NCBI GenBank assembly: GCA_009746045.1
Contig: RPFO01000076.1
Coordinates: forward strand, 3,813,920-3,877,919
Length of the DNA stretch: 64,000 bases
Direction: 5' to 3'
DNA from: Mesostigma viride
Taxonomy: Eukaryota; Streptophyta; Mesostigmatophyceae; Mesostigmatales; Mesostigmataceae
A program made the translations under genes and the position numbers. Below, piece after piece: positions 11,431-61,383 of this stretch (its first letter is position 1; each line of letters starts with the position of its first letter). Below the pieces are notes generated by a model, which saw only the letters and a program-made list of their open reading frames with translations, was not told the DNA's origin and searched no databases.

Positions 11431-12160
11431 CTAGAGCTGGTGTAGGGTTTTGTAGTCCTGCAACAAACGGCTACAACCATCTAACTCACTCTCCGTGTAC
11501 CATACTTTATCTACCTCACTACGAGCATACATCCATTTCACCTTATACTGGCGCTGGGTACCGCGGCCCTTTTTGATATCTCTATGGGCCACGATACTCT
11601 CTACCTCGTCTTCTACCTCCCCAGTGTCAGGGTTATGCTCTAAAGGGGCAGGAGCTAGTTCTCTACCAGCGAACGTGCTTTGGTGATAAAGCTTCAGCTG
11701 GCTTCTATGGAAGGTGTTAGAATGTGTCTGCCAAGAGGTAGGGATATCGATTTTATATAAGAAATTGCCTACTCTAGACAACACACGGAAGGGTCCTAAG
11801 AAGGCGGGCCTAAGTTTCACCTTAAGTTCTGCTTCGAACTTGTGAGCAAAACGGCCAACACGGGGGCCTTCTACTAATACTAGATCTCCTATATCTATTT
11901 CAGGCGCTCTTCTATCTAAGGAGGCACGCAACCTAGCAAGGTACTTAGCCTGAGCCTTTTGGTACCCTGAAATCGCGTGATCATGTGCATTTTTCATTTT
12001 ATCTAGCAAGGCCTGTACACCTTCTACAGTATCCCGGGACACATCGTCCCTGTCCCGTAGAGGACTAGCTAAGAGAGAGGTAGGAGTAAGAGGCTGTCTA
12101 CCAGTATCTAGGAAGAAAGGCGTATGTATAGCCATGCGCAGCCTGGTGGCAATTGTTAAG
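11431..12160 (-). pseudogene. gypsy integrase C-terminus with chromodomain-like module
   Basis: The frame reads HTPFFLDTGRQPLTP, a typical gypsy stretch shortly after the catalytic core, then a helical linker (HAISGYQKAQAKYLARLRAS), the GPY/F-like barrel (GDLVLVEGPRVGRFAHKF; KLRPAFLGPFRVLSRVGNFLYKIDIP) and a chromodomain-like end (VESIVAHRDIKKGRGTQRQ, YKVKW, VWYTESEL) with a stop at 11431. Such chromodomains direct insertion into chromatin in chromoviruses. It joins the upstream integrase only after a shift near 12130. Confidence 0.8.
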
Positions 12161-12896
12161 GGAGAACTCTACCAAGCATAAATAATCCTCCCAATCACTC
12201 CCCGAGCCATTAACATAATGCCTAAGCGCTTCTTCCACTACCCTATCTATTAAGACGCTCTACTAGATGAGAGGAGGAGGAGTGATAGGCAGTACCGAAC
12301 GTAACCTTGGTACCGATAGCAGCGAAAAACTGCTGCCAAAAGTCAGAGGTAAATAGCTTATCTTTATCACTAATAAACTGCCTACTCAAACCATGATATC
12401 TGTAAACGCTATTAGGGTATAGGCGTGCGCAATCGCGTGCGGTGAGTTCTAAAGGACACGGCACGAGATGACACATACGAGTAAAACGATCTACGAAAAC
12501 AAGGATCTGGGCGTTACCTCTATCATTCTTCCTAAAAGGTCCTACAAAATCCATCATGATGGAGTCCCACGGCATGATGGGATCAGGTAGGGTCCTAGGT
12601 TCTGCTATCTGTCCTACATTATTGGGTTTCATCTCCTGGCCAGATTGACAGGTTCTAACATACTCATCTACATCCTTTAAAAGGGAAGGCCAGTAGTAAG
12701 AGCGGGCTACTAGGTCCCGTACCCGTTTACCACCCTGATGAGCAGCTAAGTCATGCAACTCAAAGAGCAAGGAGGAGCGACAGATAGGAGGGACATACAG
12801 GCGCCATTGAGGGGGAGAATCTGCTATTTGCACATATAAAAACCCACCTACAAATTTACAAGGGTGCTTGCCTAATTGTTGGGGATGGGCCGGCAC
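12136..12896 (-). pseudogene. gypsy integrase, zinc-binding and catalytic core
   Basis: The integrase N-terminus reads LLFELHDLAAHQGGKRV then RTCQSGQ: the two His are kept, but the last zinc-binding Cys is Gly (CxxG for CxxC). The core shows MDFVGPF (first Asp), FISDKDKLFTSDFW (second Asp) and SSHLVERLNR (Glu). A shift near 12245 is needed to continue into EEALRHYVNGSGSDWEDYL and FSLNNCHQAAHGYT, and another near 12130. With the lost Cys and two shifts the protein should be inactive. Confidence 0.85.
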
Positions 12897-13453
12897 GTCT
12901 GGGAAACCACCTCTGCCGACGACCAGGGGTTGTCGACCTCGCGCGCCTGCGCTTGCCTGATCACGTCCGGGACCGCAACTCCCGCGCCCAGCACAGAAGT
13001 TGCCACCTGATGGTTGAACAGTCGCGCTGCTCCCAGTCCAATGGCCACTATCTGGCCCAGTGCCTCCCGCGCCAAATCCAGCTGCGACACGGTCACGTGC
13101 CCGCCCTGGTGAGCCACCTCCAGACCGTAAATCGTCGAGGACAGCTCGTCCCTTAGCGACACAAACTTTTCGACGGCCTCTCGCGACAATTCGCCGGGAG
13201 CTGTCGAAGCCTCAATTTGCATCACAATGGGGTCGCTCGCCGCCGGCCCTGCTGCAGTTCCACAAACTGCCACCCAACCTTTCTTCGCCAGCCCCCTTGC
13301 CAGGTACGCCGCCTGGACAAAGGTTGATGCAGTGCTCGGATGAGCGTAGGGATGAAAAGGTCGTGTTCGCTCCGGGGCTCCTACCCGAAGCTGCGGCTGC
13401 GAGCTTTGGCTTTGCGAAGGCTCAATGGCCTGTTCCCTCGGCACGTTGGACAT
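12872..13453 (-). CDS. 193-residue frame, possible gag N-terminal fragment
   Basis: The ATG at 13453 starts MSNVPREQAIEP, followed by a Ser/Gln/Pro-rich leader and a helical region (VEKFVSLRDELSSTIYGLEVA; LDLAREALGQIVAIGLGAARL). It ends at 12872, overlapping the first bases of the integrase frame. Position upstream of integrase and low-complexity leader suggest part of a gag. No motif identifies it, and it may belong to another element joined here. Confidence 0.35.
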   Translation of the reverse strand: MSNVPREQAIEPSQSQSSQPQLRVGAPERTRPFHPYAHPSTASTFVQAAYLARGLAKKGWVAVCGTAAGPAASDPIVMQIEASTAPGELSREAVEKFVSLRDELSSTIYGLEVAHQGGHVTVSQLDLAREALGQIVAIGLGAARLFNHQVATSVLGAGVAVPDVIRQAQAREVDNPWSSAEVVSQTCRPIPNN

Positions 13454-13503
13454 GAAGATGGAAAGGAGACAATAATACGAGTTAGAAAGAGCTCTCAACG
13501 TAT

Positions 13504-14123
13504 GTGAGCTCTTGGTCTTTCACAGCACGACTTAGCCGATGTTGAAAGGCAGCAACCTTAAATCTGTTCACCAGGCCACGACCACGGTGGGCACTTCCAC
13601 GACCAAGGTGGCACCCACGGTTCGTGCTTTCCGAGATAGCTGGTCATCCCCCATGACCAAGCTATATCCTTTGCGTTGTTCCTCGTTCCCATCGGCATGA
13701 CGAGGCACGTGCAGGCGTGCAAGCAAATCCCCAACGTCCACTGGCATCAGTGCAGAGCCAGGACGTACTGGATTTGCCTAGACTCTGCAACCTAGGAAGT
13801 ACAGGACCTGTCACAAGCCTGCAAGGTCTAGTATCCTTGCAGCCCTGTGCCAGCTCCAGTACCCTACTAGTCACAGGCTGCTGCTCCTCCTGGTCTACGT
13901 GGACCACAGTCACGTGATAGACAGGCTAAGCCTGTGCAGGCACGGCCTGCCACGTGTCCTGTCCACTATACCAGAGGACTGCACCCTAGTCGGCCACGGA
14001 TGGCTAGGACTTCGGGACTTGATATCTTTCTCGTCCCTTGTCTGTTTCAGGCGGTCAGCACGGCGTTGGAAAGGTCTTTCCAAACTGTATCCACTTAGCA
14101 TATTGGTTGCCCAAAATGCTAAC
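13504..14123. repeat. dispersed repeat R1, copy 1
   Basis: About 620 bases, from GTGAGCTCTTGGTCTTTCAC to CCCAAAATGCTAAC, recur in the same orientation at 38121-38748 with roughly one change per ten to twenty bases. Both copies end at the same point, next to unrelated sequence. No stable frame is shared, so it is probably a noncoding module such as an LTR or the untranslated end of a retroelement. Confidence 0.8.
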
Positions 14124-15908
14124 TTCTCCCGCAACAGAAAATTACGCGTCATACTGCATAAGTCGTCGGATCGTTACATTTCGATGGTCAAGATTTCATG
14201 ATGAGGTTTGCGTTCAATTTGCCGCAGTTTGCCGCCCAGAGAAAGTAGTCGTTGGACTCGTTGCCCACGATGAAACACAATCAAGCAAGCTCTTTCCGGC
14301 CCCACCGTCTAGGTCATGTAGTCGCTCTTCACGTCGGCCAGCCATAATTTCAATGCACAATTAAGGCTACACATTTCCATCTCCATTCATATTCATAATC
14401 CTGCACGACTCGAAAATGTGGACACGATAACGGCAGGCTCGAGCTACCATGGTCCGGATTCTCCCGATTTCTGGCCTGCGCTGGTTCAGTCTCCTTGATA
14501 TTGGCAACTCTCTCCGGTAAGAGATTTTTCGCAGTTTGGCTGTTTCGAAATGTTAAGTAAGTGAGATGCCTTCGGATCAGGAGACTCACACAGCCGCGAA
14601 ATCATGCCAAAGGTCCTATGTTCGATCCCTTGCTGGTAGCTTCTGAGCTTTCCTATTTTCTGTGTTCCGCGGAATCTCAGATTTGGGCCGCTAGCGCTTT
14701 CACGTTTGTTGCTTTCTGATCCGACGACAACGTTGTGGCTTGCTCGTGTGACATCTGGTGCATGGTGTGATTTATGTGTATGGGCTGCGTTGCCATAAGA
14801 GTGAGTGTTGGGTCATAAATCGTGTTCTACACATTTGCTGCATGCATGGACCGTTAGGTGCTGGTGAGCTCTTCCTTGTAGAATGGTGATGTCTATGTCA
14901 AGGATCTGATATCTTTTTTTTCTCTTGCATATTGTGTCGGTTTGCTTGATTTCTTGCAGGGACCACGAGAGTAAAATGCAAGCGGTCCCACTTTCAAGTA
15001 AGCATGGCCATGTGACGCCCTGTCGAGCGGCCCGCTTTGTTAGCTAGCTACCATATAGTATTTGATGAAAGGCATTGAATGCCGAAGATGTCATAACGCC
15101 ATAACAGACTGTGTTGAACAGGCATTGAATGCCGAAGATGTACATAACACCATAACAGTGTTGAATAGTTGAATCAACGGGTTCTTGCAGCTGTAAACAT
15201 TAAAATTATTCAAACATTCAATGAAAAAATCATGATTGTTGGTGCTGTTTTGAACAGCGGTTGTTACTGGCACTGCATGCATGTGTCTGCTGCCAGCATA
15301 TTGTATTATGGCTGTGTTTCTCAGCGCTGTGTTTTCTCACTTTTCTCACTTTTCTCACGTCCTGTTTTTCTCACTTTTCACACTTTTCTCACGTTTCACA
15401 CCTCCCGTTTTTGAATCTCACTTTTCTCACGTCCTTTTTTTTGAGATTTTTCTCACGTTTTTTCCTTTTCTCACCTTTTTGGGGGCATCTCACCCGGGTG
15501 AGAAACGTGTTTTCTCACCCATTCTCACCCCATTCTCACCCCATTTTCTCACTTTTCTCACCCACCATTCTCACCCATTTCTCACCCTTTTTCTCACCTT
15601 TCTCACCCAATTTCTCACCATTTCTCACCCATTCTCAAAGCCGAGTTCCTAGTGTGATTCCGTGGACTCCGAGCATAGAACACTTTTTTCTGAGACGGCA
15701 GGCTTTTAGTCTTTAAAGTAATTAGACCAACCTCGGGCAGTGTTCGATGGCATGGAAGCTCTTGCTGTCGTTTACATAAACGGCGCTGTCAATCAAGTCT
15801 GTTGGTTTTTAATTTTGACAGGACTCGCCCAGCATGTTTTCCGCATGTTTTTAGCTCCAGGAGCTATAACAGCTGTAATATCACCAGTGGAATGCGGTAG
15901 GGGAGGTC
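14124..15908. other. no gene seen; simple repeats
   Basis: No protein-like frame. A roughly 50-bp unit beginning GGCATTGAATGCCGAAGATG is duplicated in tandem at 15071-15120 and 15121-15167. A pyrimidine-rich minisatellite follows. The last five bases, 15904-15908 (AGGTC), are the left target duplication of copia element E1. Confidence 0.6.
15330..15640. repeat. TTTTCTCAC-type minisatellite
   Basis: A pyrimidine-rich array of TTTTCTCAC and CATTCTCACC variants of 8 to 12 bases. Strand asymmetry (C and T on the plus strand) is nearly complete. Open frames that cross it, rich in Phe, Ser, His and Pro, are by-products of the repeat. Confidence 0.85.
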
Positions 15909-16429
15909 AGTTATTCTAGGGCTTCAGGCCTAGACTATCAGTACACGTGGCGTGGTCCCCGTCTCCCAAGTGGGATACGGACATGGACGGTAGTGTAGTA
16001 CTCTGGACATATCTCTACTAGGATTTAGATCCGCACGTGCCATGATGGGCACGTGGGTGCTAGATATTAGCACTGAGATATGTAGTGCACACGCACGTGG
16101 GTATTCACGTGGTAGGGTTTATGAGCTGTGATGCAGACCACAAGGTGGCTGCAGTGCTAGTCCTGTACGGAGGTCCTAGGGGAGGTCCAGGATCGTCCAC
16201 GTAGTGCTGTTAGGCAGTCGTTGCCTGCGGGCATCGTATCAGTCCTAGCTGGAGTAGATCTAGCTGGACGGAGCCAGCACCTCATTGGTTAGCACTAGTA
16301 CAGGATAGCTAGGTTACCCTAACCTACGTGCCCATGCAATCCAGCTTGGCAAGCTTGCATGGGTTGATATTATGCCAGCCATTGCATAATCCAACACACG
16401 TTCGCATCCATTGCACGAGTGCCATAACT
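15909..16429 (+). repeat. E1 5' LTR
   Basis: 521 bases, beginning AGTTATTCTAGGGC and ending GAGTGCCATAACT, so the ends are the inverted pair AGTTAT/ATAACT rather than TG..CA. It differs from the 3' LTR near 15949 (GGTCC against TGTCC) and near 16002 (TACTCT against TACACT). No standard initiator-tRNA primer site (TGGTATCAGAGC type) follows; the gag ATG is only 32 bases downstream. Confidence 0.95.
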
Positions 16430-16460
16430 TGCATTTATAAAAACTCTCTCATTTTTAAAG

Positions 16461-16810
16461 ATGTCGAACGTTTCCAATACCGATTACTCTTCGGAGTCAA
16501 GCCTGTCCCCATCGTCCGAAGATTTGGACTACCGGGCGGCAGTGCGGGGCCGGCAGGGTCGGGACGATCACGCTGGCAGCGATGCCGGCAGTGGTCGCTC
16601 GTCTTCGGACGAGGACCAGCGGTTCCTGGATCAGTTGGCGGCGCGGCCGCCGCTATACAATGTATGGCGTCCCAACGCACCACCGGCGGAAGGGCAGCCC
16701 ACGGCCCCCGAGCTGGTCACGGGGCCGGGGAGGGTGGTGCCGGTATTGGGGGACATACCGTCAGATGGCTACGACGAGGACGAGGACCTCGTGGATCTCG
16801 AGTTGCCGGA
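16461..16810 (+). pseudogene. E1 gag, 5' part, cut by transposon
   Basis: The ATG at 16461 starts MSNVSNTDYSSESSLSPSS, a Ser/Asp-rich acidic leader. The frame is open to the insertion point after 16810. The transposon entered within a codon; deleting it with one GGA copy brings this segment in frame with 25721 onward, continuing as an Asp/Glu/Lys/Arg-rich helix. Reading on into the transposon end gives a short false C-terminus. Confidence 0.85.
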
Positions 16811-16842
16811 CCCTACCAGCCATTTAGAATGTACTCCAGCAC
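16811..16842 (+). repeat. left terminal inverted repeat
   Basis: 32 bases identical to the reverse complement of 25686-25717. Directly inside lies GCAAAATGTACTTCG, whose core AAAATGTACTT also occurs just inside the right end. Confidence 0.95.
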
Positions 16843-16864
16843 GCAAAATGTACTTCGTACCGAA

Positions 16865-17690
16865 GTTTGTCTTTTTATGCTGAAAATTGTCATGCATGAT
16901 GTTTGCAACCAAAATAGACCTCGTACAAAGTTTGGTATCGATCGGACGTCATCTTGGTGACATTTGCTAGCAATAAAGGTACATTTTTGTCATTTTAAAT
17001 TAAATTAAATAGTAATAAATAGGAAACAGTACTAAATCACGTCAAACCATCATGGATATTTGCAAGCAACCTAATTACCACTAGAATAGACCATGCACAA
17101 AGTTTGGGGTCAATCTGAACTCAAAATAGTGACGTTTGCTAGCATAAATACTGCATTTTTTGCCATTTTCAAGCATTTTGCTCAGTGTAAGCTACTAAAC
17201 AAAATCAAACTACGTCATAAAGCTATGAAATGTTGAAAGCAACCTAAACACCACTAGATTAGACCATGGGCCAAGTTTGGGCTCTGTTTGATGTCAAAAT
17301 AGTGACGTTTGCTAGCATAAATGGTGCATTTTTTGCCATTTTCAAGCATTTTGCTCAGTGTAAGCTACTAAACAATATCAAACTATGTCAGAAAGCTATG
17401 AAATGTTGGAAGCAACCTAAACACCACTAGATTAGACCATGGGCCAAGTTTGGGCCCCGTTTGATCTCAAAATAGTGACGTTCGCTAGCATAAATGGTGC
17501 AATTTTTGCCTTTTTCAAGCATTTTGGTAAGTATAGTTGCCTCAAACTAAGTCAGAAAACTGTGAATTGTTGTAAATAACCTGTTTGCCACTACATTAGA
17601 CCATCCTCAACTTGTAAGGTCAGGCATAGGTAAAGGTAGTGACACTTGCTAGCACTATATATGAGCATATTATGCCTCTTTTCGCATATA
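16865..17690. repeat. subterminal 173-bp tandem repeats
   Basis: The landmark AGACC recurs at 16916, 17088, 17261, 17434 and 17598, giving a period of 172-173 bases with a shorter last unit. Each unit has a form of CCAAGTTTGGG, AATAGTGACGTTTGCTAGCA and CATTTTTTGCCATTTT. The two central units are most alike; the outer ones are diverged. The array starts just inside the left inverted repeat and has no long frame. Confidence 0.85.
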
Positions 17691-18074
17691 CACATAAAAA
17701 ATAACAAGACAATATTAAATCATGGCCTTAATACAAGGTGTGCAAATGCAAATCACACCAGATCGGATGACCAATGATGGGTGGCTGCATGCCAACACAT
17801 CTACCAGGCTGCAGGGTGAGAGGCCACATCGCTACAAGACAGGAATCCTCGCAATTGCACACCGCTAGTACACTGCATACCCCAAGAGGATTTGGCTACA
17901 AGCCATAAAAGTTTGGCCATGCTAACACATTCTTCATCCAAGCAAACTGCAGCCTCTCCAAACTCAACTCATTGATTTAAATGCAACTAGGCCAGGCGTG
18001 CATGCTCTACTTGCCGATAACCATGAGTAAACTTGTGTACCACTTCATTCCATGCGCCGGTAGATGGCACCGTC

Positions 18075-21000
18075 TCATCTACCAGTCATCCCCGGCTCCC
18101 ATTCCGCATCCTCCTCTCCCTCTCCCTCTCCCTCTTCCTCCTCCTCCTCCCCCTCCCCCTCCCATTCTCCCTCCCCCTCTCCCTCCCCCTCTCCCTCCTC
18201 CTCCCCCTCCTCCTCCCCCTCTTCCTCCCCCTCTTCCTCTCCCTCTTCCTCCTCCTCCCCGCCTTCACTGTCACTGTGCACAGCAGGGACGGCATCGTCC
18301 ATGTGGGTGCCATCACCTGCATTCACGGTGCCACCCTCCTGTGGAAAGAAGCGAGCGCGGCCAAATGCCTCGACTGGGTGTGGGCAGCCGCACACAAACT
18401 GAGTCACCTCCTCCAGGGCATGATAGTCCTCATACTGCCCATCAGCCCACATCGCCTTGATGAGCAGGTGACCTCCCCTTTCCTGAACCTTAGTGACCCA
18501 GCCATGGAAGCGCTCCCTCTTCCTCGCTGTCCCCGGAAACAGGGCACACAGGCGCATCCCGATAAGCGCACGTGCTCCATGCTCGGCAAAGTAGGCATTG
18601 CAGTCATCCTTTGCTGCTGCCCTGGCGGCGGTGGCAGTCTTGTAATGCTCAAAGTCAATCTGCGGGTGCTCTTTCAACGCCGCCACCGTGGCAGCTGACA
18701 GTTTGCCGGTACTGATCAGCTCAGGCTGGTGCACCTCTGCCGTACCGCCCACTGTCCAGTGCTGCAGGTGTACATCAGAAATGGGGACCGTCATCCCTGC
18801 GCTGCCGCCACCTAATGTCACTCTAGAAAACTGGCCCGTCCACGTCGGTGCGTAGTAAGGAGAGGCGACAATGCTGTCACGCTCCGTGCGATCGCCTTCC
18901 AGATCAAGGACCTTCACCAGCATGTGTGGTGCCCACGGCATTCCCTGCCCGCAGGTGACGGCTGGCCGCTTAACAACGAGTAGGTCGCCGCGTCGTATGA
19001 GGCTTCCATTCACCTTGAAGGTGTGCCTGCCAGAAATCAGTGTGCGCAAAGCGGGCGTTGCCGTTGATGTGCTCCCTCGCGCAGCGGGCGCACATGCGCG
19101 GTTGATCTGCGCTTGAATCTCGCGGGCAGGGCAAGCGACGTGCGAGATGACTTGGTTTACGGGCAGCCTCAGTGCCCGTGTTGCCCGCGCAACCGACTGG
19201 TCGCCTGCAGATCGCAGCGGCAAGGGTACCGCCTTGTTCGCTTGCAGTTCACGCTGCTCTTTGAGCTTTTGCTCCATGATGTCGAACAGATTCTCGTTGT
19301 TGGCACGCACATCCTCCACGGACTTTGGCACCTGCTCAAACCATCTGTCCAGCAACTGCTGCTTCTCAGCGGAGACGATGTCGGGAAAGAGGCCGTGAAG
19401 GCTAGCGCAGGTACGTCTCCTGGCACCGCCCTCGTCCCATTCAAAAAGCGGTGCTAGACCGGGACTTCCCTTGGGGGCCTTGCCACGCTCCATGAGGAGG
19501 CACCCATAGACAGGATCTCCCTGCGGGGTGTACCCAATGGGCGTGACCCCGTCACAAGCCTCGCCGTTAGGCCCTGTGGGCTGCCACTTGTTCACCGGTG
19601 CATTTACCAACGTTTCTGATGCGGCTAGGCGCCAGCGGACATACACGTTCATATCCGGCCCTAGAAACACTTCGAGATCGAACACCTTCGAAGAGCGGTG
19701 CCTCTCCCTCTCGGCTTCGGTTGCTGGCTCATCATCCAAGTTGGCGGTGGCGCCCGCGCCCGCGCCTACGCCCGCGCCTTGGGTGGCGCCCGCGCCCGCA
19801 CCCGCGCCTTCTCCCCCGCCCCCGCCCCCGCCTGCACCTGCGCCCGCGCCATGGGTGTCGCCCGCGGCTGGCTTCTTCGGAAATGCGTCCATCGATTTCA
19901 CCCACCGGCCAAAGTCGCGGTGGATGCACCCATTCAGCCACGTTGTGACATCCAGTGCGGCGTCCACAATCTGCAAGCAATAGAACAGTCATGCAATAGG
20001 AATAATGCAATATGAATAATCATTAGTATCAACGATGCGTTCATGCAGACGTGAACATGTGAAAAACAACAAGCATGCAACAACGACTCCAGCACACTTA
20101 GTAAATACTGCTCATAATATCTGTAGCACATGCAACATGGTTAAAACACACATGGATGACCTATATGGCTGCACATGAAGTGTGCACATAGAGAAGACTA
20201 GAAATCCAGCATGATATCAAGAGCCATCCACACTAATATAAGTCTTACCGCAGCTTGGGGCTTCTTCGGGTTGAGTTGGCGCATCGAGTTTGTCGGGCCC
20301 TGCTCGTAGTAATGCTCAAATGCGATGCCAAGGCCCGCCAGCACATCATCAAATGTGATTAGTTTCACAGGTGGCCTGTCCGTCACCTTGTTCTTTAAGC
20401 CATTCATCCACCTGACGAACCAACCGAACCGTTGATCACAATCAATATGAGTGTGACCAACGGGTAGCCTGCAGAAGCGGACACGGTCAAACAGTCCTCT
20501 CATGATGAGGACGGCGGCGAACCCCAGAACCTCGCGGTTCATGTTGTCGCCGCCACCGTCCACCTGCATGACCAAAATTCTGGGCAGCCCGTAAGCCCTT
20601 ATCTCAGGGTCCGTGGCACTGTTCCACGACTGTTGCTCGCAGATTTCAATGATGTGACGAACAAGGATGGTGACAGTTATCCTGCCCGAATTACCAGCCA
20701 CAGCCTTGTTGATCACCCATGGTGCGACCACCCAGAAAAAAGTCCTCAACCCGTGTGCAATCGTACAAATCAGGGTGTAAGGTACGGTCAGGTCTCGCTT
20801 GGAAAGAAAGTCCTTAGGCGCCTCAGCCGCCGCAGGAATGTGAGTCCTCATGTGAGCGATAGCGTCCATGGACATGGAATGATAGTGACCGTTCTTACCA
20901 TTAAAGCGCCTGACAAGAAACCCCTTCCTCTCTACATGAAAAAGCTCTTCGTGGTTGGCGAGTTCCTCCTTCCAATACTCCCATCGTTTAGTGTCAGTGT

Positions 21001-21910
21001 GACGGGCAGCATTGATGTTGTTGTTGATGTTGCTGCAAATGTTGCACACGCCCATGATCTTCGTGCGAAACTTCTCCACGCGGACATAACTGGTTGCAAC
21101 AACCTCCTCAAAGATGATCCGGAACAGAGTGAGAGACACGAAGGGAAAGTTGGCTTCCTTCTCGTTCTCCTTCACATAAGTGGCGAAAAGAGTCTGCTTG
21201 CATGGCTCCTCAATGAACGTAGTTCCGTTTGTCGGGTCATTCTGCACCGCGGGCTCCAACCACCGCCGAATCCACTCCTCCGCAAGCGCCCGTGCTTCCA
21301 GCCCCCTCTCCTTGCAGCCCCCGCGAGACTGCTTCTTGCCATGGTGGCCGCTTACATCTATGACGTGCTGTCCCTCGGCTCGCGCTTGGCGCTCATCAGC
21401 CACCTCGTGGACCGACGAGTGCCAAACGTGGTTGCTAATTTTCAGGCAGTGCCTGAATGCCGCCTCGCAAACCTGAAAGTGAAAAGGGGTCACAGACCCT
21501 GTGTTCTTATCCTTGACTCCCCCGTCGAGAACGAACCGGAAACCAGCGTCATGAACGAACTTGTGACGAGTAGATGACGACATGGTCGTTATGGCGTCGT
21601 ACCCCCCCTGGTGCAGCTGCTGCTTTATCGCCGCCTTCCTGTCCTCTTGCTTCCGCCCGGGCGCAAACCAGGCGCTCCGCAATGCCTGGAGATGTGATGT
21701 TTTAATGGGCTTCATGCACTCGTGGCCGCACTTACAGTCGACCGTCTCGTCGGTCACTAGGCTGCCGGCATGGGTGCTGCCGCTTAGCATTTCAGCTGCG
21801 GACTTGCGCTTCCCATGGTGTCCCATCAGCATGATAGCGAAAGCCAGGAAGCAGAGAGCCACGATTATGTCCCAGCAAAGCCATAGCACACCTTCCGTTT
21901 CGACCGCCAT
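18075..21910 (-). CDS. DUF7869-like transposon protein with Tudor-like and acidic C-terminus
   Basis: Two exons: 21910-20249 and 19970-18075, with a 278-bp intron (GCG|GTAAGA; TTGCTTGCAG|ATT) in phase 0, giving about 1,185 residues. Exon 1 has a hydrophobic N-terminus (WDIIVALCFLAFAIMLMG), then cysteine-bearing stretches (VDCKCGHECMKP; IMGVCNICS followed by a His-rich helix). The core reads SMSMDAIAHMRTHIP, then VMQVDGGGDNMNRE, then LPVGHTHIDCDQRFGWF. This Asp, D-G/N-x-N and GHTH-D-F order is that of DUF7869 proteins, common in algal and invertebrate repeats; a DDE-type RNase H fold is my inference. Exon 2 adds a Gly/Ala linker, a basic middle part, a Tudor-like segment (GMRLCALFPGTARKRERFHG; WADGQYEDYHALEEV) and a Glu/Gly tail. 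It is the best transposase candidate. The hydrophobic start is odd and the true ATG may lie elsewhere. Confidence 0.75.
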
Positions 21911-22013
21911 GTCGGCCACTAGTCCGGATAGCTCAACGTACACCTGACCTTGACACTAATCGCACAAACAGCCACAATTTTGCAAGCAAGAAGACATGGC
22001 TACCTCGGCATTT

Positions 22014-22340
22014 CATGAAATGTACTTCGTGAAATGCATTTCGTGAAATGTACTAAGGAACGTGATTGGCCGGCGTTCGCTCGCCAAATCTCGCAAAATG
22101 TACTAAGGCACGTGATTGGTCCCGCAAAATGTACTAAGGAACGTGATTGGCCGGCGAAGATTCTGTTTGCAACAATTAAAATTCCCTACAGAATCTTCGC
22201 CGGCCAATCACGTTCCTTAGTACATTTTGCGGGACCAATCACGTGCCTTAGTACATTTTGCGAGATTTGGCGAGCGAACGCCGGCCAATCACGTTCCTTA
22301 GTACATTTCACGAAATGCATTTCACGAAGTACATTTCATG
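22014..22340. repeat. perfect palindrome between divergent genes
   Basis: Arms of 153 bases (22014-22166 and 22188-22340) are exact reverse complements around a 21-base A/T-rich spacer. Each arm carries three forms of the unit AAATGTACTAAGG(A/C)ACGTGATTGG plus AAATGTACTTCG at its outer edge. It sits 104 bases from the minus gene start and 77 bases from the plus gene start, where a shared bidirectional promoter is expected. The AAATGTACT core also lies at both transposon ends. Confidence 0.97.
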
Positions 22341-22416
22341 GAAGCTGCGCAGAAGACAGCCTGGAGGCAGAGGGAAAGTTCCTGTTCATCGTGAGTCGGG
22401 GTTAGCAATCACGGCG

Positions 22417-24755
22417 ATGTCGTCTGCCATGGCGGAGGAAGTCGGTAATGGCTGCCCTGCCGCGGTAGAGAACCTGGAGGAAGTAAAGATCGAAGAAAAA
22501 GCTAAGGAAACTAGCGCTGTGGAAGGGGGGGTGTTGGGCGACAACTCCAGACTTCGAAAGAGTTTTGTTCCGTGCCGGGGGGCTGTCGCTGGGTTGGAGC
22601 GCATGGCGCAGGATGCTAGGTCAGCCTCGGGGAGTGGCCTTATTAGCTCGGCCCCCGTGTTCAGCAAATGCCTAGTAAAGTATGGTGGCCACTTAGGGGT
22701 GCGTAGAATGGCTATGAATGCGGTGGCATCGAAGATGACGGCAAACAAAGGTGCCGTCATCAACGTCATTGACGTCGGTGGGGGGACGCCTGCAGGCGTG
22801 AGGCGACAGAATGGTGAGAATCAGCTGTACTTGCTGGATGCCACTATGCTGACAGAGTATACCAGCTTCTCCGAGGCGATTCATCTCGACGTGCGCAAGG
22901 GGCAGGTAACCGGAAAGCCGGGATATCCCGACATCTTCGTCGCCTGCGAAACTGGGAACGACACATTCGCAATCGGAGACTTGGTCACGTTTGATGGCCA
23001 GGCAGCTGTCGCTGACATGGCTTCTGCAATGGAGCTTGACGTGGCGACATTCTCCTCGGCCCTAATCGCTGGCCTGGTCCGTACGGGGGGTAAGAATGAT
23101 AGAGAGGAGCAGTGGTTCTGCCTGGTAATGCCCCTTTTGAGCGATTCGCAGGGGTTTTACTCGCTGCCGTCCACATCACCGGGGAAGCAGTTTCCGGCAA
23201 TGTGGTGTAAGCCGCGGTTGCTGGCAGTGGATCTGGGCGCCCATGGGGCAATTCGAGAAACTTCTCTGGTGGCCCAAGCTGTGGAAGCCGCCGCGGGAAT
23301 ATTCTATGACCCAAACTCTGCCATCAATGCATTAAAAACTACCTGCACGCAAGAGAAAGGCTGGAGTGTAAGTCTTGCACGAATGCTTTCCTCTTTGATA
23401 TAAGTGCCTTTTCCGTGGATAGATTGGGCTCTTTTTATAATAAATAAATAAACACATGGTAAAATGTCCTTGGGTTGTTTTGTCCTGTATGCACCTCCTT
23501 GCCCAACATCCAGGCTGTCGGCTACAAGGTGCCAGCGTCTACACCCCCTGCCACACTCCCAGCGCCGCCGCCAAGCACACCACTTCCTGCCTCACTCCCC
23601 TCGGTGCCCCTGCTATGTGCACCCCCTGCCGTATCTTCAAGGGCAGCTGAAGGGACTCAGGACGACGACATGACACCGCACAACAGCAGCGGGGATGGCG
23701 GTGACAACAGGTCAGACAAGTCTTACGGCTCGCCACCCGAGAAGAAGGGGAGGGTCAAGCAGGAGCATGCACCAGTGAAGCGCGAGAAGCATGTTCGCAC
23801 TTGCACCAATGCATCTAAGCATGCCATTCCACCTGTGGTTGCTGATGCTGCCATTCCCATGGTGACTGCTGGTGATGCCGACTTATCCGACTTGCGCTCG
23901 TCTCTGGATGAGGTCAAGAAGGAGTATGATGGCTTGAGGGAGGCAATGGCCGAGGCTCAAACCGATATCAAAAGCATCCTCGGGGGCGGTCGCACCAAGC
24001 CAAAGCGGGGGAGCCAGGCTGTCGAGTCGCTGCCCGCTCTGGCCAAGAAGCTTGGCTTAGCTGAGGGGAGGCTGGCCAGGGTGGAGCAGGAGCACGCAGC
24101 TATAAATGCAAAGCTGGCCACACTTCAAGGCACAGCTGCAGCACCAGCAACGGTGGGGAGCAGGAAGAAAAAGGGGCAGGAGGTTGTTGCTGCGCAGCAG
24201 TCACCACCAAAAGTTGAGGCGCCCGCTACCCCTGACATGCGAAAGGAGGTCAAGGAGCTGCGGGAGCGGGTGGAGCGACTGGAGCGCGAGTACCGTACTC
24301 CGTTGGTGGTCCCTGGTACTCCAGCCAGTGACTCCAGTCACGGGCTGGAGCAGCAAGGGCATCATTATTCAACACGGTCGAGTCCCCAGAGGGTGCTGCA
24401 CTATGATGCAGCCATGGCTCAGCCCAGGGCTGTGACATATGTGGACGATCAGCGGGTGGTGTACACTGCTGCAGGAGGCGGATACCACAGGCAGGCAGCT
24501 CCCGTGACACTTCGCACGGCATTGGACCCTGAGGTTGAATACCACCGGCATGCACCTCCAGTGACAAGCCGCTCGACATACAGTAACAGTGGGCAGGGCA
24601 CTGCTTTCGTGCTAACCCCACCGGCAGGTCACCAGCAGTACTTCGACTCTGAATCAATCACGATGGTGCCTGTCACATCTCTCGCGCAGAACGTGGTGCA
24701 CTTGCAGCCCGCTTATCCAGCAGTGGAGTATTCCATGAAGAAGCAACGGCGCTAG
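22417..24755 (+). CDS. transposon-encoded 730-residue protein, unknown function
   Basis: Two exons: 22417-23367 and 23514-24755. The 146-bp intron (GGAGT|GTAAGT; CATCCAG|GCTGTC) is in phase 0 and contains stops. Exon 1 has an acidic start (EEVKIEEKAKE), then INVIDVGGGTPAGVRR, YLLDATML and HLDVRKGQ. A glycine loop after a hydrophobic strand, followed by Asp-bearing strands, could be a Rossmann-like nucleotide or methyl-donor fold, but no family is firmly recognised. Exon 2 is different: Pro-rich, a basic cluster (PPEKKGRVKQEH) that could be a nuclear signal, heptad-like helices (LRSSLDEVKKEYDGLREAM; ELRERVERLEREYRTP) and a Tyr/His-rich tail ending MKKQRR. It is divergent from the DUF7869 gene across the palindrome, so co-expression and a joint role in transposition are inferred. 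Confidence 0.75.
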
Positions 24756-25480
24756 ATTAGTAGCTTGGCTATCGATGCCATGCTTATCAAGGTCTATGAG
24801 GCATGGTGGGATGTCTTGTTAAGTGCTGCTCATTAAGGAGCACAGGTGAGCGATATGTTTGCAGGATGCTGTACATTGTCTTACACCATATGTTTTGTGG
24901 CTCATGTTTTCGCGCAGGCATTGATTATACATGTATCATGCATCAAGAATGGCATGACAACTAGGACTATGCATGTGCAAACTAAGAGTAAAGCTCACGG
25001 GCTCTTTCATCAAGATAGCCATGCATGGAATATGTGTGCCCACAGTCCATCATGGTTGGAAACCGGGTGTTGCAACTTGCCTTGTTCAAAACTCTCTTAA
25101 TAAAAGGCAACAATATAATTTGTGGTTGGTGATGTTTGGTGAGTTTCAAGAGTTTTGCCACAATGAAGTTGCTATTTTGCCATGTGCATGTGTCATGATT
25201 GTGAGGCGCTTTCTATGGTCCCTGATTATATAGCTGTCTCACTTAATACTTGCTTATCGCTACAAGATGAATTATGACAACACCAGTATGCATGACATGC
25301 TTGCTTGATTACATGTGATCGCAAGGCGCAATGGGGGGCAGGATTGCCTCATTAGTCCGGTGGCTGCGACAGTTTTCGTGTAGCGAATCTGGGCGCGAGC
25401 AGGGTCGGGGAGCCGAAAGAGGCGGCAAAACCTGTTTTTCAAGGGTCTGGAACACTAGACAACTGCATAGCAGCCTTAAA
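24756..25480. other. transposon 3' flank, no gene seen
   Basis: Sequence between the second transposon gene and the right subterminal repeats. Only short frames, none protein-like. It probably holds the 3' untranslated region of the 730-residue protein gene. Confidence 0.5.
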
Positions 25481-25489
25481 ATTTGTTCA

Positions 25490-25580
25490 AATGTAGTTCA
25501 ATGTAGTACATTATAGTAAAAATGTAGTACAAAGTAGTACAAACTAGTACAATGTAGTATTTTGTAGCATATACTAGTTC
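25490..25580. repeat. right subterminal GTAGTAC-type repeats
   Basis: GTAGTTC, GTAGTAC, TAGTAC and related words recur about eight times within 90 bases. One reads TAGTACATT, the complement of the AATGTACTA core in the palindrome. Clustered short words near an end are often transposase-binding sites; that role is inferred. Confidence 0.65.
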
Positions 25581-25685
25581 AACTACCTCCAGATGAGATC
25601 CAGGGGCCATGGGGACACTTTTTTTGCAGAACTGAACTTGAAACAAGCAAAAAAGAGGAAACTTGGAAAAACTCAAAATGTACTT

Positions 25686-25717
25686 GTGCTGGAGTACATT
25701 CTAAATGGCTGGTAGGG
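25686..25717 (-). repeat. right terminal inverted repeat
   Basis: Exact reverse complement of 16811-16842. Preceded by CAAAATGTACTT and followed by the second GGA of the target duplication, then the rest of E1 gag. Confidence 0.95.
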
Positions 25718-25720
25718 GGA

Positions 25721-28130
25721 GGACAAGGAGAAACGCGAGGAGCTGCTCCGCCGAGAGGCAGAGCGCATTCGGCAGGAGGCCCAGCTCCGCAGAGAGCTGG
25801 AGCAACAGCGCGAGCTGGAGGCTCAGCGCGAGGCTCAGCTGCGGGCAGAGACTGAGATGGACAGGACAGCCCGGGTGCTCGCGGAGCGGCAGCAGGAGCG
25901 GGATCGCGTGGCCAGGGCAGGTCTGCGCGCGGGGCCGACAGGTGCGCGAGAGACGCCCCCATACGTCCTCCGCAAGAAGAACGAGCTTTACACCTTTGCG
26001 CACAGGCGCACAGCGCGCTCCTTTAGGCGAATGGCTGGAGATGTGCTGCAGGAGACCGACTCGTCGGTGGAGATGCAGCCAGGAGCGCGGGGAGAGGAGC
26101 TGGTTTTGATGGACCCGGCCATGGTGGAGGCAGAGCGTCTGGCCAAGATAGAGTACGCCAGGCATTGCCAGCGGAAGGCCAAGAGGGCAATGGTGCGGTC
26201 CATGGCGGAGAACAGTTTGGCTAGGGAGCGCGCAGCCAGGGAGGCGCAGCATCGGGAGATGAAGCGACTTCGTGCGAAGGCGCACGACGCCGCGGAGAAG
26301 ACCCGGCGTCACCAGGCGCGGCTGGACGCAGCCTTGAAGAGGTCGGAGGCGACACTGGCAACGATGGTGGGCCCGGCGAGGCGTGAGCAGGAGACCCGGC
26401 TGGCGAGGAAGAGCCGGCGTAATGCGCGTGCCCTAGACAGGCGCATGCGCAAGGAGGAGCGGGCTCTGCGCAGGTATCAGGAGGCGGCCAGGACCTGGGC
26501 TCTGCAGGGAGAATTCGGAGACGCAATCCGGTTTGAGCGTGGTCTGGCGCCACATGAGCCGCTGCCTGAGGAGGCTGTATTGGACTTCATGCGTACCCCA
26601 CAGCCAGCAAGGGCCCAGCGAGGAACGGCCTTGTTAAACGCGCGTGAGCATGTTCGCGCTGGCGCAGACACACCCTACCCCCCACCCCCCACACCCACAC
26701 ACACCATGCAGACCGACACGGACCTGGAGCTGGACCGCATCGCTGCACTACTCCACCAGGAGCTGGATGCAGCGGAGGCCAACCCGACCAAGCGGGCGCG
26801 GGCAGCAGAGGCAGTAGAGCACCTGCTGAAGGCCGCCAAGCGGGTCCGCCAAGGAAAGTGGCAGGAGGGGTGTGGACCATCGTCTACGCCCCAGCGGTCG
26901 CATCCAGAGGAGGATGGTGACGAGGGGAAGGACGGGGGAGCACCAGGGGGAGGGGCACCAGCAAGCACCGGGGGTATGGCGGGCGGCAGCAACGCTGGAG
27001 CGGCAACCCAGCAGCAGCAGCAGCCACAGCATCCGCAGCAGCAGCAGCAGCAGCGGCAGCAGCAGCAACAGCAACCGCAGCAGCAGCAGCAGCAGCAACC
27101 TCATCCACAAGCGACTGTCGCTGTACCACAGCGACCCAGGTTTGATGCATCCCGCAGGGAAGATAGGATTACCTTCCCAGGTCTAGCTGAGGGATATGTG
27201 CAGGAGGACGCACTTGAGTTTCTTTTCAAGATAGAACATTCTTGGTCCCATGATAACATCCGTGATTGGTTTCCTGCTCTCAGGGTGTCTAACACAATCC
27301 ACCAATCTGCACCTAGCATCAAACAAATGGTTCAGATGTATGAGAGGAGGGCCAGCACACCTGGGGCAGAGGAGGTGCAAATCTTCACAGAATTCATAGC
27401 AGACCTAAAAGGGCTGTTGACCAAGGGGGAACACCTGCAGGCTCTCAAGGGGTTCACTGGTTGGCCTCGTACAAAGTCAACAAGTCTGACTACGTACGTG
27501 ATAACAAACAGTTTGTCCTGTACATAGACAGGGACGAGGAGTTGAAGAAACTCAACTCTAAGTACCTGATCCATCAGTGGCTCACCAAAGCTGAGCTGGA
27601 CAAGAACACCAATGCAGTTCTGCTGGCTGGCCTTAAAGACAAGTGGGATGATTTTAGGGGGGCCATGTTGTTCATTCAGCAGAGCCTAGAACCCTTCTCA
27701 ACTGTCAAGGAACCCAAGGTTAACAAGGTCCAAGGGGGGGTGGTCAGGACGGTGCAGGTCCTAGCAGGAAGAAGCTCATCAAGGAGGTGGTAGCTCAGGT
27801 CAAGGCGGTGTTCAAGGGTCCCCAGCAAGGTAAGAAGGCAGGGGGATCATCCAAGCAGCAGGGGAAATCAGACAAGGGGGGAAAGGGGAACCCAGGCAGT
27901 AAGGCTGGGTCCTCCCAGGGGCCTAGTCAGAAAGGTAAGCCTCATGACTCCACCCTGTATTGCACCAGGTGCTCATGCAAGGGGCATGAGAGGGATGATT
28001 GCTGGAAGGGCAAACCCGAACTTGGATCTGATGTGGATGTATGCCCAGGTTGCTGGGAGCCCCGCCACCCGTTACCTGCAGGGGGACGCTGCAACAAGCC
28101 CAGGAAGGGAGCCTCAACGGGGCGCCCCAA
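25721..28130 (+). pseudogene. E1 gag, 3' part with zinc knuckles
   Basis: Continues gag after the transposon. First a long charged helix (EEMLLR-like Glu/Arg repeats, for example ERIRQEAQLRRELEQQRE), then a Gln-rich tract encoded by CAG repeats (27010-27100), a capsid-like region (TFPGLAEGYVQEDALEFLFK; FPALRVSNTIHQSAPSIKQM) and, after shifts near 27470 and 27740, LKDKWDDFRGAMLFIQQ. A basic Gly/Lys/Ser stretch precedes a CCHC knuckle, YCTRCSCKGHERDDCW (C-x2-C-x4-H-x4-C), and a second, irregular one, CPGCWEPRHPLPAGGRC. It would package element RNA. No protease follows the knuckles, unlike standard copia elements. Confidence 0.8.
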
Positions 28131-29130
28131 CAAACAAGCCAGCACTCAGGACGACTGTAAGTCTCCTGTACCCTGGTTTCTCAATGGCCGTGTACCTTCC
28201 ATTTGCTCTGTGTTGCCTGACAGTGAGGAAGTGGATTGGGACCTGGCTTATGACATGACGCTAGCACAGGTGGCCCAAGATCCCACTATAGCCTCCTTAG
28301 ACGCAGCAGCAGATAAGGTTATATCCTATGCCAGGTTAGCCCAACAGCTACACAAGGCAATGGGGCATGAGGCAGTGGCAGAAAGGCTGGCTAATAAAAT
28401 TGATGGCCGTGACCTGGAACAGATGTGCAGGCATGTCAGGAAGCACTGTGAAGCGTGCCAACTGCATGCACCTAAACCCAAGAGATGGCATGTGGCCACC
28501 CCACCACTGGCTAGAGGAAAGCTAGTAGGGGATGTGATACACCTGGTGAAGGACACGGTGTATTACTTGGTCATAAAAGATGCCTGGTCTAGGTTTGTGG
28601 TGATAGAACCTTGCCAGGCATGGCCAATGAACAACTGCACAGAGCCCTGCTGATTGCACTAGCACGGTATCATCCTCAGGAAAAATTAATGCTGGATCAG
28701 CAGTTCACGTGGATACAAGATTATCCTGATCTGCCCAAGATAGACATTGCTGGGGCTCAAGATCATGAACGCCAGGGGATGATTGAACGTACCATGCGTG
28801 CTATCAGGGACCTCATAAAGAAAAATGAGTCCAGGACAGCAGAGTCTGGGAGCTATGCTGATAGGACAGCGTGGGCAGCTGAAGTGTGCAGAACTCTGAA
28901 CACCAAGCCCCTCATGTCTTCTCCTTTTGGTGAAATCACACCAATTGGCCTGCAATCAGGTAGCTACTCTCAGGAGGTACTAGACCACTACAACACGCAG
29001 AGGCAACACTTGGCCAAGTTGCTGGCAAAAAAGGATAAGAGTAATGCCAGGCCTGTGTTTGAAGTGGGGGATCAGGTACTCTACTATAGGGAGGGGAAGG
29101 GAACAAAGCCCACTCTGGTAGATGGCATGG
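28131..29130 (+). pseudogene. E1 integrase
   Basis: The zinc-binding region reads LHKAMGHEAVAERL then KHCEACQLH (H-x3-H and C-x2-C). The core has GDVIHLVKD and VIKDAWSRF, then, after a shift near 28610, LMLDQQFTW as second Asp and RQGMIERTMRAI as Glu. A C-terminal segment follows (FEVGDQVLYYREGKG). A further shift near 29130 leads to the next frame. Homology with E2 integrase is visible in the DxQF and QGxIER boxes. Confidence 0.75.
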
Positions 29131-30060
29131 TCCAGCTGAAATCATCAGGTTCTCAGAAACAGGGGACACGGTGACTATTCAGCATCACAGAGAGCGAATG
29201 GTTGGCAAGCATAGACTGAAGCTTTATTACCCTCCTTTGGCAGACGTGTCAGGGGTAGAATTCTTGGACATGGATTCAGAGCCTCAGTCTGGTGGGTTGG
29301 TCTCACCCAGTGAATTGGCTAGGGACATAGCTGATGCAAGCAACACAACCATAGACGCTCCTGTGTTCCTCAGTGGTGCAGCCCCACCACAGCCCACTGG
29401 TCCAACTGGGCAGGAGGAACGTGCACTGGATGAGCAGCAGGTCGCTCCTCCCTCATCTCAGGAACAGCCACACGAAGCAGCAGATCCTGTTGTCCCCAGG
29501 AATAAATTTGCTGAGGCTCTAAAAGCTCTACATAGAGCACACACTGCCAAGGCACAAATGGCAGCAGGTGCAGCACAAGTCAATGCTGTGGGTGAATCTA
29601 ACCAGGATCCCAGTATTCTGGCAGTAGACACACAGGCACAGGTGAGCATCATCAGTGCACAAGCTGTATCTGGCCTAAGTCTGCAACGCTCGCCCTGGGC
29701 TAGAGTGTCAGATTTTTCAGGCAAAACAAAAATGGCAGTCAAAGGCCAAGTGCTAATTCCCATTCTGGGTGTGCCCACTCCCTTCCAGGTAGTAGAGGGC
29801 TACAAGGGGAATGCACTGCTGGGGGAACCATTTGTCTCATACCCTGGAGTTGTCATCTCAGCTGGGAGGTTGAGCGTGACTGGGGTGGGGCAGGTCACCC
29901 TGGACCATTTCAAAATTCCTTTAACACAGATCAGTGATGGCCTGGAAGCAGCCATCAATGCTGTCAACATAAAATACCTCCCAGGTCAGGAACCCTGTGT
30001 TGATTCCCTCATTCATTCTCAGAAGCTACACCCCTCTGCGTTTGGGCTTGGTAGATGGGA
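29131..30060 (+). pseudogene. E1 aspartic-protease-like domain, after integrase
   Basis: The frame from about 29131 first finishes the integrase tail (HHRERMVGKHRLKLYYP), then a Pro/Gln-rich linker. At 29627 it reads ILAVDTQAQVSIIS, a retropepsin-like active-site strand with DTQ where DTG is usual. About 60 residues later comes NALLGEPFVSYPGVVI, matching the closing hydrophobic-LG-x-x-F/L strand. The same pair occurs after integrase in E2, so the position is not a rearrangement of one copy. Catalytic competence is uncertain because the glycine is replaced. Confidence 0.65.
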
Positions 30061-31080
30061 CATTGCGTCCATGTCTCCCTTGTCCTATGATGATGTGGTC
30101 AAAGACTGTCAAACGCAGATTGGTTTTCTGAAATGGATGGAAGCCTTTAACAGGGCTAGAGAGGAATGGGTTTGTCCTGATCCACGTAGTAAGTCCCAGG
30201 TACCACCTGTAACACCGATTGAGGCACTGCCACAAGGGGCCAGAAAGCTCAGACTGAAGTTTGTCTGCAAGCATAAACCCCAGGCAGATGGGACACCTCC
30301 CATTTTTCATGCCAGACCTTGTGTCACGGAGTTCAGGGGCTCCACTGAGCTAACAGAGGCTGAACTGTATACCCCTGGTATTCAGCAGACGTCTCTTAAG
30401 GTCCTGTTGGCCACTTTCCTTCACCATCTGAATGCTGGTAAGGACTACGTGTGTAAAGCCACTGACATTAAGCGTGCCTTCCTTAAAGGCAACCCTGACA
30501 TAGCCAAAAGGTGTGGAGGGGTCAAGTCTATGTGGTCAACACTCCCAAAGTCTGGGCTGGGGACATCAAGGAACCTCATCTAAGGCCTAACTTGGGGGTA
30601 GAAGGGCTTCAGTCAGCACCTAAAATTTTTAGGCTGTCTGCCCAAGAGGTCTTCCTGAAGCTGGGGGCCCAGTATGATGATATTGACCCTTGTTTCTTCA
30701 CCATCCCTCATCCTGCTGGTATGATGATGTTTGTGTGGCATGGGGATGATCAGCTCATTACTGGTCCCAGGGCAGCTGTGGAGGATTTCATTGCTCAAGT
30801 GTCTGCTAGCTTTGAATTAGGCAAGCAGCTGGAGCTGGGGAAAGATCCTGTCAAGTTCTGTGGCATCATTCTGAACCTGTTTAAGGAGCAGAAGGAGTGG
30901 GTGTGTTCTCTCAAAGCTCCCCTGAGTATGTCATGTCTTGCAAAGATGTTCTTCCCTCTGACATCACTCCTGATCTCTGTCCCACTATTAGGGGTAAGCT
31001 AGGTTGGCTGTGTGCCACTTGTGCTCCTCACCTGGCGTGGTCAGCAGAGTGGATGATGATGTCCTCATGGAGGTAGGGTC
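30061..31080 (+). pseudogene. E1 reverse transcriptase (RVT_2 type)
   Basis: Copia-type RT: RKLRLKFVCKHK and ARPCVTEFRG (fingers), ELYTPGIQQTSLKVLLATF, then KATDIKRAFLKGN with the first catalytic Asp near 30463. After a shift near 30505, LGVEGLQSAPKIF leads to FVWHGDDQLITG at 30739-30750, where HGDD replaces the usual YVDD. The thumb continues after another shift near 30910 (SCKDVLPSDITPDLCPTIRG). Confidence 0.8.
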
Positions 31081-31650
31081 TAGGGCTATTAAACAGGTGT
31101 TGCATGATGGCCCTCCCCTTATTCTTCATGCTTGGATCTGTTCCAACCCATCCACATCACATGCATGATGGACAGTTCCATGGAGTCACGGGTAGTCACT
31201 AAGGTACAAGCCAGAGAGGCAGGTCTCTTTATGTTGTCTAACCCCACTGGCAAGCAATCTTTGGTTTCCTGGTTCAGCAGACTCCACAAGCGCAAGGCAG
31301 TCAGCAGCAATGTAGCAGAATGCCGTGCTGTGGTATCAGCTGTGTTGCATGCCAGGTACTTGAACCATCTGCTGGTGTGGTTGCAGCATCAGGCTGGTAG
31401 TTATGCTGGTGTCAAATCCCATCTGCTGACTGACAGTCAATCCCTTCTCTCTTTCCTGGACAACCCCTTGGCTGTGCACACCGATTTGGACTGGATTGTC
31501 CTCAAGCAGGAGTGTACCTATCTGGAGTCCAAGACTCACATCCGAGACCCTGACAATGCAGCAGATGCACTCACAAAAGTGCCACAGGCTGCAGGGCCTC
31601 AGTACAGAGTCCTATACACGCTGATGAACCCATATAACGGCAGAGGGTGA
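31081..31650 (+). pseudogene. E1 RNase H
   Basis: Copia-type RNase H: CMMDSSMESRVV (first Asp), SWFSRLHKRKAVSSNVAECRA (Glu), LLTDSQSLLSFL (second Asp), and the end IRDPDNAADALTKVPQ. The stop is at 31648-31650. It removes the RNA strand during replication of the element. The segment from 31132 is open throughout. Confidence 0.85.
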
Positions 31651-32025
31651 AGTGCCTCAGCCTAGGGATCTTAGCACCAGATAGGAGGGTGGTCATGGGG
31701 TGGCAGGGTCTGAAGTGTCCCACCCGTAAGACTCTCTTTGCGTCATTAAAGCTTGAGGTCAGAAGGGTCCTCCTTTATTGATGGCTTGTTCTTTGTCAAT
31801 AAAACGTGTGGTCATATTTTTCTGACAATGGTTTTCCTAACACAGGCACCCAACCAGTGGGGATGTTGTATCCAACACGGAGGAGCTATGGGCGCTTTTA
31901 TAAATGCATCTCTTTCAGTGTCCTGGTTGTCCCTGTGGGGAACCTTGCTTATCAGTAGTGGTTGGCATATGAGTGGGTTGTGGGAAGAGTCTTCCCCTCA
32001 CTCCCCAAAGAAAAGTAATAATGGG
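31651..32025 (+). other. E1 3' untranslated region and polypurine tract
   Basis: Noncoding stretch between RNase H and the 3' LTR. The last bases, CCCCAAAGAAAAGTAATAATGGG, hold the likely polypurine tract (AAAGAAAAG), also present next to the 3' LTR of E2. Confidence 0.6.
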
Positions 32026-32546
32026 AGTTATTCTAGGGCTTCAGGCCTAGACTATCAGTACACGTGGCGTTGTCCCCGTCTCCCAAGTGGGATACGGACA
32101 TGGACGGTAGTGTAGTACACTGGACATATCTCTACTAGGATTTAGATCCGCACGTGCCATGATGGGCACGTGGGTGCTAGATATTAGCACTGAGATATGT
32201 AGTGCACACGCACGTGGGTATTCACGTGGTAGGGTTTATGAGCTGTGATGCAGACCACAAGGTGGCTGCAGTGCTAGTCCTGTACGGAGGTCCTAGGGGA
32301 GGTCCAGGATCGTCCACGTAGTGCTGTTAGGCAGTCGTTGCCTGCGGGCATCGTATCAGTCCTAGCTGGAGTAGATCTAGCTGGACGGAGCCAGCACCTC
32401 ATTGGTTAGCACTAGTACAGGATAGCTAGGTTACCCTAACCTACGTGCCCATGCAATCCAGCTTGGCAAGCTTGCATGGGTTGATATTATGCCAGCCATT
32501 GCATAATCCAACACACGTTCGCATCCATTGCACGAGTGCCATAACT
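32026..32546 (+). repeat. E1 3' LTR
   Basis: 521 bases matching 15909-16429 at all but two positions. The right flank AGGTC at 32547-32551 is the second copy of the target duplication. Confidence 0.95.
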
Positions 32547-32551
32547 AGGTC

Positions 32552-38748: not shown

Positions 38749-38749
38749 T

Positions 38750-52320: not shown

Positions 52321-52458
52321 GTAGGCGCCACTAGGCTGCGTTTTCCGTTCTGTTCGTCCCTTGTAACGTCGATGCCGGCTCATGCCGCCGCGTATGCATA
52401 CGGCATTTGTATTAATCGGCCCACACCGTCCCGTTCGTTCCTTCCATTCGTATTTATC
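52321..52458 (-). repeat. dispersed repeat R4, copy 2
   Basis: Inverted copy of 43907-44044. It ends exactly where the E2-family LTR at 52459 begins. Confidence 0.8.
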
Positions 52459-61359: not shown

Positions 61360-61383
61360 CTTTTTAACGAGGCGTGTAATACG

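Follow-up and report, generated by a model that had tools for sequence, protein, structure and literature searches.

The 8,907-bp insert at positions 16811-25717 of a 64,000-nt stretch of Mesostigma viride DNA (contig RPFO01000076.1 of assembly GCA_009746045.1; this stretch is the window, and coordinates are window positions) is probably an autonomous, very recently active DNA transposon of the cut-and-paste type. It would encode an RNase-H-like DDD transposase (T) and a partner protein (A), with a palindrome between the two genes serving as their promoter; the probability of this reading is put at about 0.8. Features are collected in Table 1, and genome-wide searches refer to 439.9 Mb in 2,243 contigs.

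The insert has perfect 32-bp inverted ends and lies between copies of GGA. Its deletion together with one GGA leaves a single frame that is open from 16461 on through the downstream gag open reading frame of a host long terminal repeat (LTR) element. The LTRs of this host (521 bp, 2 mismatches) are 99.616% identical, and the host is flanked by a duplication of its own, AGGTC on both outer sides. (The host occupies window 15904-32551; its LTRs start with AGTTAT and finish with ATAACT.) The joined 200-bp empty site is found unbroken in 40 scored places (of 120 candidates), 5 of them at full score; the host family is itself young, with relatives 93-100% alike at the gag site. Since the insert sits in an element with 99.6% alike LTRs whose scored relatives are empty, it must be younger than this young host copy, and it is not an ancestral part of the host. 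The initial annotation of the window had described the inverted ends, the GGA duplication with restoration of the gag frame, and the likeness of the LTRs, and had proposed a DNA transposon younger than its host; each of these observations holds, and the further copies as well as the empty sites support the proposal.

The exact 32-base end occurs 28 times in the genome (15 forward, 13 reverse), as 13 inverted pairs and two singles, against no occurrence of the reversed control pattern in the same 440 Mb, which excludes chance. An absence of further copies, the outcome that would have told against a transposon, is thus not what the search returned. Counting that of the window, 15 copies have these ends, one of the other 14 (L038) entering an assembly gap. 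All 13 exact pairs are flanked by 3-bp duplications (GGA, TAT, ACT, CGA, CAG, AGG, TAT, CAA, TGA, CTT, CAC, CCT and CAA), and the single L039, whose right end differs by one base, by GCA; the two ends can be read in 14 of the 15 copies, and the duplication is 3 bp long in 14/14, with 12 different sequences. G or C stands directly before the duplication in 12 of 13 sites and directly after it in 10 of 13, a weak preference that was noted post hoc. The window copy and three others (L026, L030 and L037) are letter-identical over 8,907 bp. Compared base by base, six other uninterrupted copies have length changes within one repeat (element 1326-1393); the further single differences among them are one change within that repeat in L031 and a substitution at element 58 in L025. 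One copy, L029, is a 4,212-bp derivative by internal deletion (98.7-99.1% identity). Near-identical copies at unrelated sites mean that the element has spread very recently. Two copies contain nested inserts of 1,722 bp (L033+L034) and 1,897 bp (L035+L036), with inverted ends and TTAA duplications, which by that feature we take to be piggyBac-like.

A non-autonomous family shares these ends in slightly altered form. A search with the 21-base end, allowing up to 2 mismatches, gives 266 matches in the genome; among the matches listed, 28 are exact and all others carry one and the same T-to-A change. Eleven places with this change were analysed. Both ends lie within the sequence taken for the place in nine (two of which include 2,500 unread bases), eight of the nine have a 3-bp duplication, and the copies are 98.1-99.9% alike. 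Their similarity to the window element covers the ends, the palindrome and a large part of T exon 2; BLASTN aligns nothing in them with element 3564-4597, the part coding for the catalytic region, or with most of gene A. In one of them (L047, oriented, with reverse frames near 1214-2333 and forward frames at 6268-7771) long arrays encoding the two-residue repeats GV, RG, PT and HA are seen, and arrays of this type occupy the place that gene A has in the window element.

Gene T has two exons and specifies 1,185 amino acids counted from the first ATG. The protein matches Pfam PF25273 (DUF7869) with E=4.6e-13 and 49.6 bits against a curated cut-off of 26, covering profile positions 55-119 of 192, that is, only the core of the domain, to which Pfam assigns no function. 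T exon 2 matches no family. All six aligned T proteins match DUF7869, and D360, D462, D466, D501, D503 and the sequence GHTH.D.DQRFG are invariant among them. A more distant protein from another DUF7869 family (L063, 26% identity, profile positions 36-158) retains D360, H397, D462, N467, N469, H497-T498-H499, D501 and D503. (Alignment A1 leaves out L056, whose frame departs near its end, and the fragment L057; alignment A2 leaves out L058, which is in A1, and adds one new family only, because four A2 sequences besides that of the window are already in A1.) This conservation suggests that T is likely a transposase, and of the DDD type, the third catalytic residue being either 501 or 503. Among the 14 long copies not a letter differs in T exon 1, in either intron or in either exon of A. 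As to T exon 2, 5 copies agree fully, 3 differ by an in-frame change of repeat length, and the glutamate-rich tail is shifted in the other 6. The first description of the element as apparently intact accordingly stands for the frames and splice sites of the window copy, and does not extend to the T tail of those six.

Relatives of T are numerous in this genome. T exon 1 gives 77 scored matches (of 1,422 candidates): the 14 identical ones, 28 near-full-length relatives at 43-46% identity (one with a stop) and 35 shorter matches, 26 of which are 53% identical over residues 210-544 and are perhaps a non-autonomous or re-used fragment. Of these 26 (L057 and 25 others), 23 share one score; they have a frame of 397-398 residues and other ends, and this frame nearly equals the middle of T in another family (family D, L054). 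The DUF7869 profile finds 150 scored matches of 275 candidates, many of equal score, in frames of 750 to more than 1,700 codons; on the strength of the equal scores and long frames these are probably several other large multi-copy transposon families. The profile finds no match in 14 control genomes. Protein searches at E<=0.001 and E<=5 return no homologs elsewhere, one search at E<=0.001 having scored only the 8,000 candidates that share most words. T exon 1 has no match in the viral_contigs and genome_contigs collections, an absence that means little because these collections are believed to be mostly viral or prokaryotic. A degenerate core pattern picks out 15 viral loci, whose translations were judged by eye to be non-relatives, and 0 loci in genome_contigs.

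The 730-residue A protein, also encoded in two exons, matches no family above cut-off; weak sub-cut-off matches, of coiled-coil type, are confined to its second half. A divergent match to A lies within 6 kb upstream of T in 14/14 copies of the family and in 27 of the 28 near-full-length relatives (41/42 together). Near-complete T genes therefore have A as a stable partner and not as a passenger.

The divergent genes are separated by a palindrome whose arms, 156 bp each, are 99% complementary (DNA fold z = -38.8). Of the 13 copies of the motif AATGTACT in the element, 8 lie within the palindrome and 5 near the tips (at 18 and 37 bp on the left; at 25, 41 and 213 bp on the right), and the other 55,093 bp of the window have none; in 200 shuffles of the element the mean count of the motif is 0.17 and the maximum 3. 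A second motif, ACGTGATTGG, forms three boxes in each arm, 6 in the element and 0 outside; since CCAAT, a box common in promoters, reads ATTGG in reverse, these are presumably CCAAT-type boxes. Rfam gives no match over the whole window. The palindrome, the motif that it has in common with the ends, the introns and the conserved gene pair go beyond what the initial annotation had noticed.

A sister family, C, has the same layout. Its complete copy (L060+L059) is 9,029 bp long, and the ends of a second copy are found in L061 and L062. The ends are again perfect 32-bp inverted repeats, with 17 of 32 bases as in the window ends (CCCTA, TGTACT and the last CAC included); the duplication is CAT, and in the second copy GGG, which is ambiguous within a G run. 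Its T is 45% (exon 1) and 40% (exon 2) identical to that of the window, its A is 31% (E=1.3e-18) and 29% (E=3e-4) identical in the two exons, and the genes diverge as in the window family. Upstream of its T is a palindrome with perfect 117-bp arms that contains GTGACACC, and GTGACACC is also found in arrays near both ends of family C. The palindrome core TGATTGGCC...GGCCAATCA is common to the two families; the outer motif is different. The layout is thus inherited, and the motif differs at the ends and in the palindrome together.

The ends, the duplications, the identity of copies, the pairing of the genes and the distribution of motifs are directly observed; catalysis, binding, promoter action, feedback and excision can be fitted to them as follows. 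T, with DUF7869 and D360, D462 and D501/D503 furnishing an RNase-H-like DDD active site (as its sequence suggests), would recognize AATGTACT sites in both ends, excise the element and join it to target DNA at points 3 bp apart, generating the 3-bp duplication. A would be the obligatory partner, a DNA-binding or assembly factor by analogy with TnpA, which has that role in En/Spm. The palindrome, with CCAAT-type boxes in both arms, could be a symmetric two-way promoter for T and A. Since the sites of the ends recur in the palindrome, binding of T and/or A is predicted there too, and the element might in this way sense and limit its own dose. The palindrome may also help to pair the ends, somewhat as the internal operator/enhancer of phage Mu helps to pair the ends of that phage. 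Transposase and sites would change together, family C having kept palindrome and core with another motif in both palindrome and ends.

Several observations weigh against this reading. Complete ends are seen in two families only, those of the window and family C. The A partner is absent for 31 of the 35 shorter T matches (present for 4), and no scored T match accompanies 26 of the 71 matches to A exon 1 in the genome. The six copies with a shifted T tail may be inactive, or assembly errors. A sequence-based search of T against solved structures gives no match, and we infer movement by cut-and-paste, rather than by copying.

Which superfamily the element belongs to is a separate question. The odds are about even that the superfamily is one that Repbase already lists (Academ, Sola, Kolobok, Dada, Novosib or another), with DUF7869 as its unnamed transposase domain and the element as an ordinary algal or protist member. 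The domain is so widespread, with its many scored matches and probable further multi-copy families in this genome, that curators could have met it, and to our knowledge several named superfamilies have no Pfam model. On the other hand, duplications are 4 bp in Sola (rejected on this ground) and Kolobok, 6-7 bp in Dada and 8 bp in Novosib, unlike the 3 bp found here. Academ elements have 3-4-bp duplications and extra genes, with a gene for an XPG nuclease or a helicase; neither domain is present in the frames scanned, a comparison with the general description of Academ rather than with its transposase. DUF7869, moreover, is named in no paper found by literature search.

PIF/Harbinger is alike in its 3-bp duplications and its two-protein layout (in Nuwa, with a DNA-binding partner, according to an excerpt of PMC12730594). 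However, its duplication pattern TNA (PMC12477816, in excerpt) fits only 1 of 14 duplications here, and no Harbinger-type transposase domain is matched in the element proteins. Zator duplications are likewise 3 bp (PMC10045372, in excerpt), and the element proteins have no Pfam match of the ISAzo13 type. KDZ (Zisupton) is rejected, its duplication being 8 bp (same excerpt of PMC12730594) versus 3 bp here and no KDZ match being found. CACTA, Harbinger, Zator, Sola and Zisupton thus each depart from the element in at least one tested feature, and the accessible parts of PMC12730594, PMC10045372, PMC10294476, PMC8226300, PMC12477816 and PMC11071193 contain no comparable element. A new superfamily, set apart from the named ones by tested features and Pfam matches rather than by comparison with Repbase, can be proposed tentatively, at somewhat under even odds. 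DUF7869 might then, with the same reservation, be the catalytic domain of an undescribed superfamily of eukaryotic DNA transposons. The present clade within it would be characterized by CCCTA ends of 32 bp, duplications of 3 bp, a divergent gene for an obligate partner, and a self-sensing two-way-promoter palindrome whose motif changes in step with the ends.

The palindrome could instead have arisen by chance rearrangement, or as a fold-back element inserted into the transposon, and have no working role. Arms that are 99% complementary are what young fold-back elements have, and the function of the palindrome is only predicted. Such an origin is nevertheless unlikely: no duplication is seen around the palindrome, family C, whose T is 45% identical, has a palindrome in the corresponding position between the two genes, with a common core and a different outer motif, and the palindrome is retained by non-autonomous copies from which the catalytic region and gene A are gone (over 328 bases in 10 of the 11, over half its length in the other).

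That the element is a divergent member of CACTA/EnSpm, with T and A as TnpD and TnpA, is very unlikely. Maize En/Spm is about 8-9 kb long, with a repeated subterminal motif and two proteins, and the element, close to 9 kb long, resembles it in having subterminal repeats and coding for two proteins; however, its ends are CCC..GGG instead of CAC..GTG, its genes, unlike those of CACTA/EnSpm, diverge around a palindrome, and its proteins match no CACTA transposase family in Pfam-type searches. The duplication length agrees (2-3 bp in CACTA/EnSpm; 3 bp for EnSpm in the excerpt of PMC12730594), but the C(2)C motif after D2, given there as a CACTA/EnSpm feature, is missing: the sole CxxC of T is at residue 300, before D360. 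The original view that the element fits neither CACTA nor Harbinger is supported by these features and by a Pfam search of both proteins, in which only T found a family (DUF7869).

A likely transposase function is thereby suggested for a Pfam domain of no assigned function, and tied to elements that are complete and extremely young, so that activity is directly testable. The matched change of motif in ends and palindrome across two families constitutes a natural experiment on the co-evolution of transposase and site, and the regularity with which T and A occur together suggests a transposition system of two proteins, unmatched to any described one that was found.

Table 1. Positions in the window of the parts of the insert and of the host LTRs
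Feature	Position	Strand	Remarks
Target-site duplication GGA, left / right	16808..16810 / 25718..25720	.	
Left terminal inverted repeat, 32 bp	16811..16842	+	AATGTACT inside at 16828, next copy at 16847
Subterminal direct repeats	16984..17535	+	173-bp period, 3 copies, 74-77% alike
Gene T exon 2, glutamate-rich tail	18075..19970	-	homologous in family C (40% identity)
Gene T intron	19971..20248	-	GT-AG
Gene T exon 1	20249..21910	-	ATG at 21910, frame open from 21943
DUF7869 in gene T exon 1	20402-20593	-	profile match
Codon starts of D360, D462, D501, D503	20866, 20560, 20443, 20437	-	invariant in alignment
Central palindrome between divergent genes	22011..22343	.	arms 22011-22166 and 22188-22343; 8 AATGTACT and 6 ACGTGATTGG sites
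Gene A exon 1	22417..23367	+	
Gene A intron	23368..23513	+	GT-AG
Gene A exon 2	23514..24755	+	coiled-coil-like
Right terminal inverted repeat, 32 bp	25686..25717	-	AATGTACT at 25505, 25677 and 25693
Host-element LTRs (context), left / right	15909..16429 / 32026..32546	+	

Elsewhere in the window, integrase and chromodomain frames of a Gypsy-like element lie at 11431-14124 (minus strand), and a 0.63-kb stretch adjoining that element is repeated at 38121-38749 (92%). Inverted repeats about 10 kb apart (90-92%) are found at 39231-39626 and 49783-50284. A 1.73-kb tandem duplication (99%) occupies 52458-56823, with a further related copy 7 kb off at 61377-62917.

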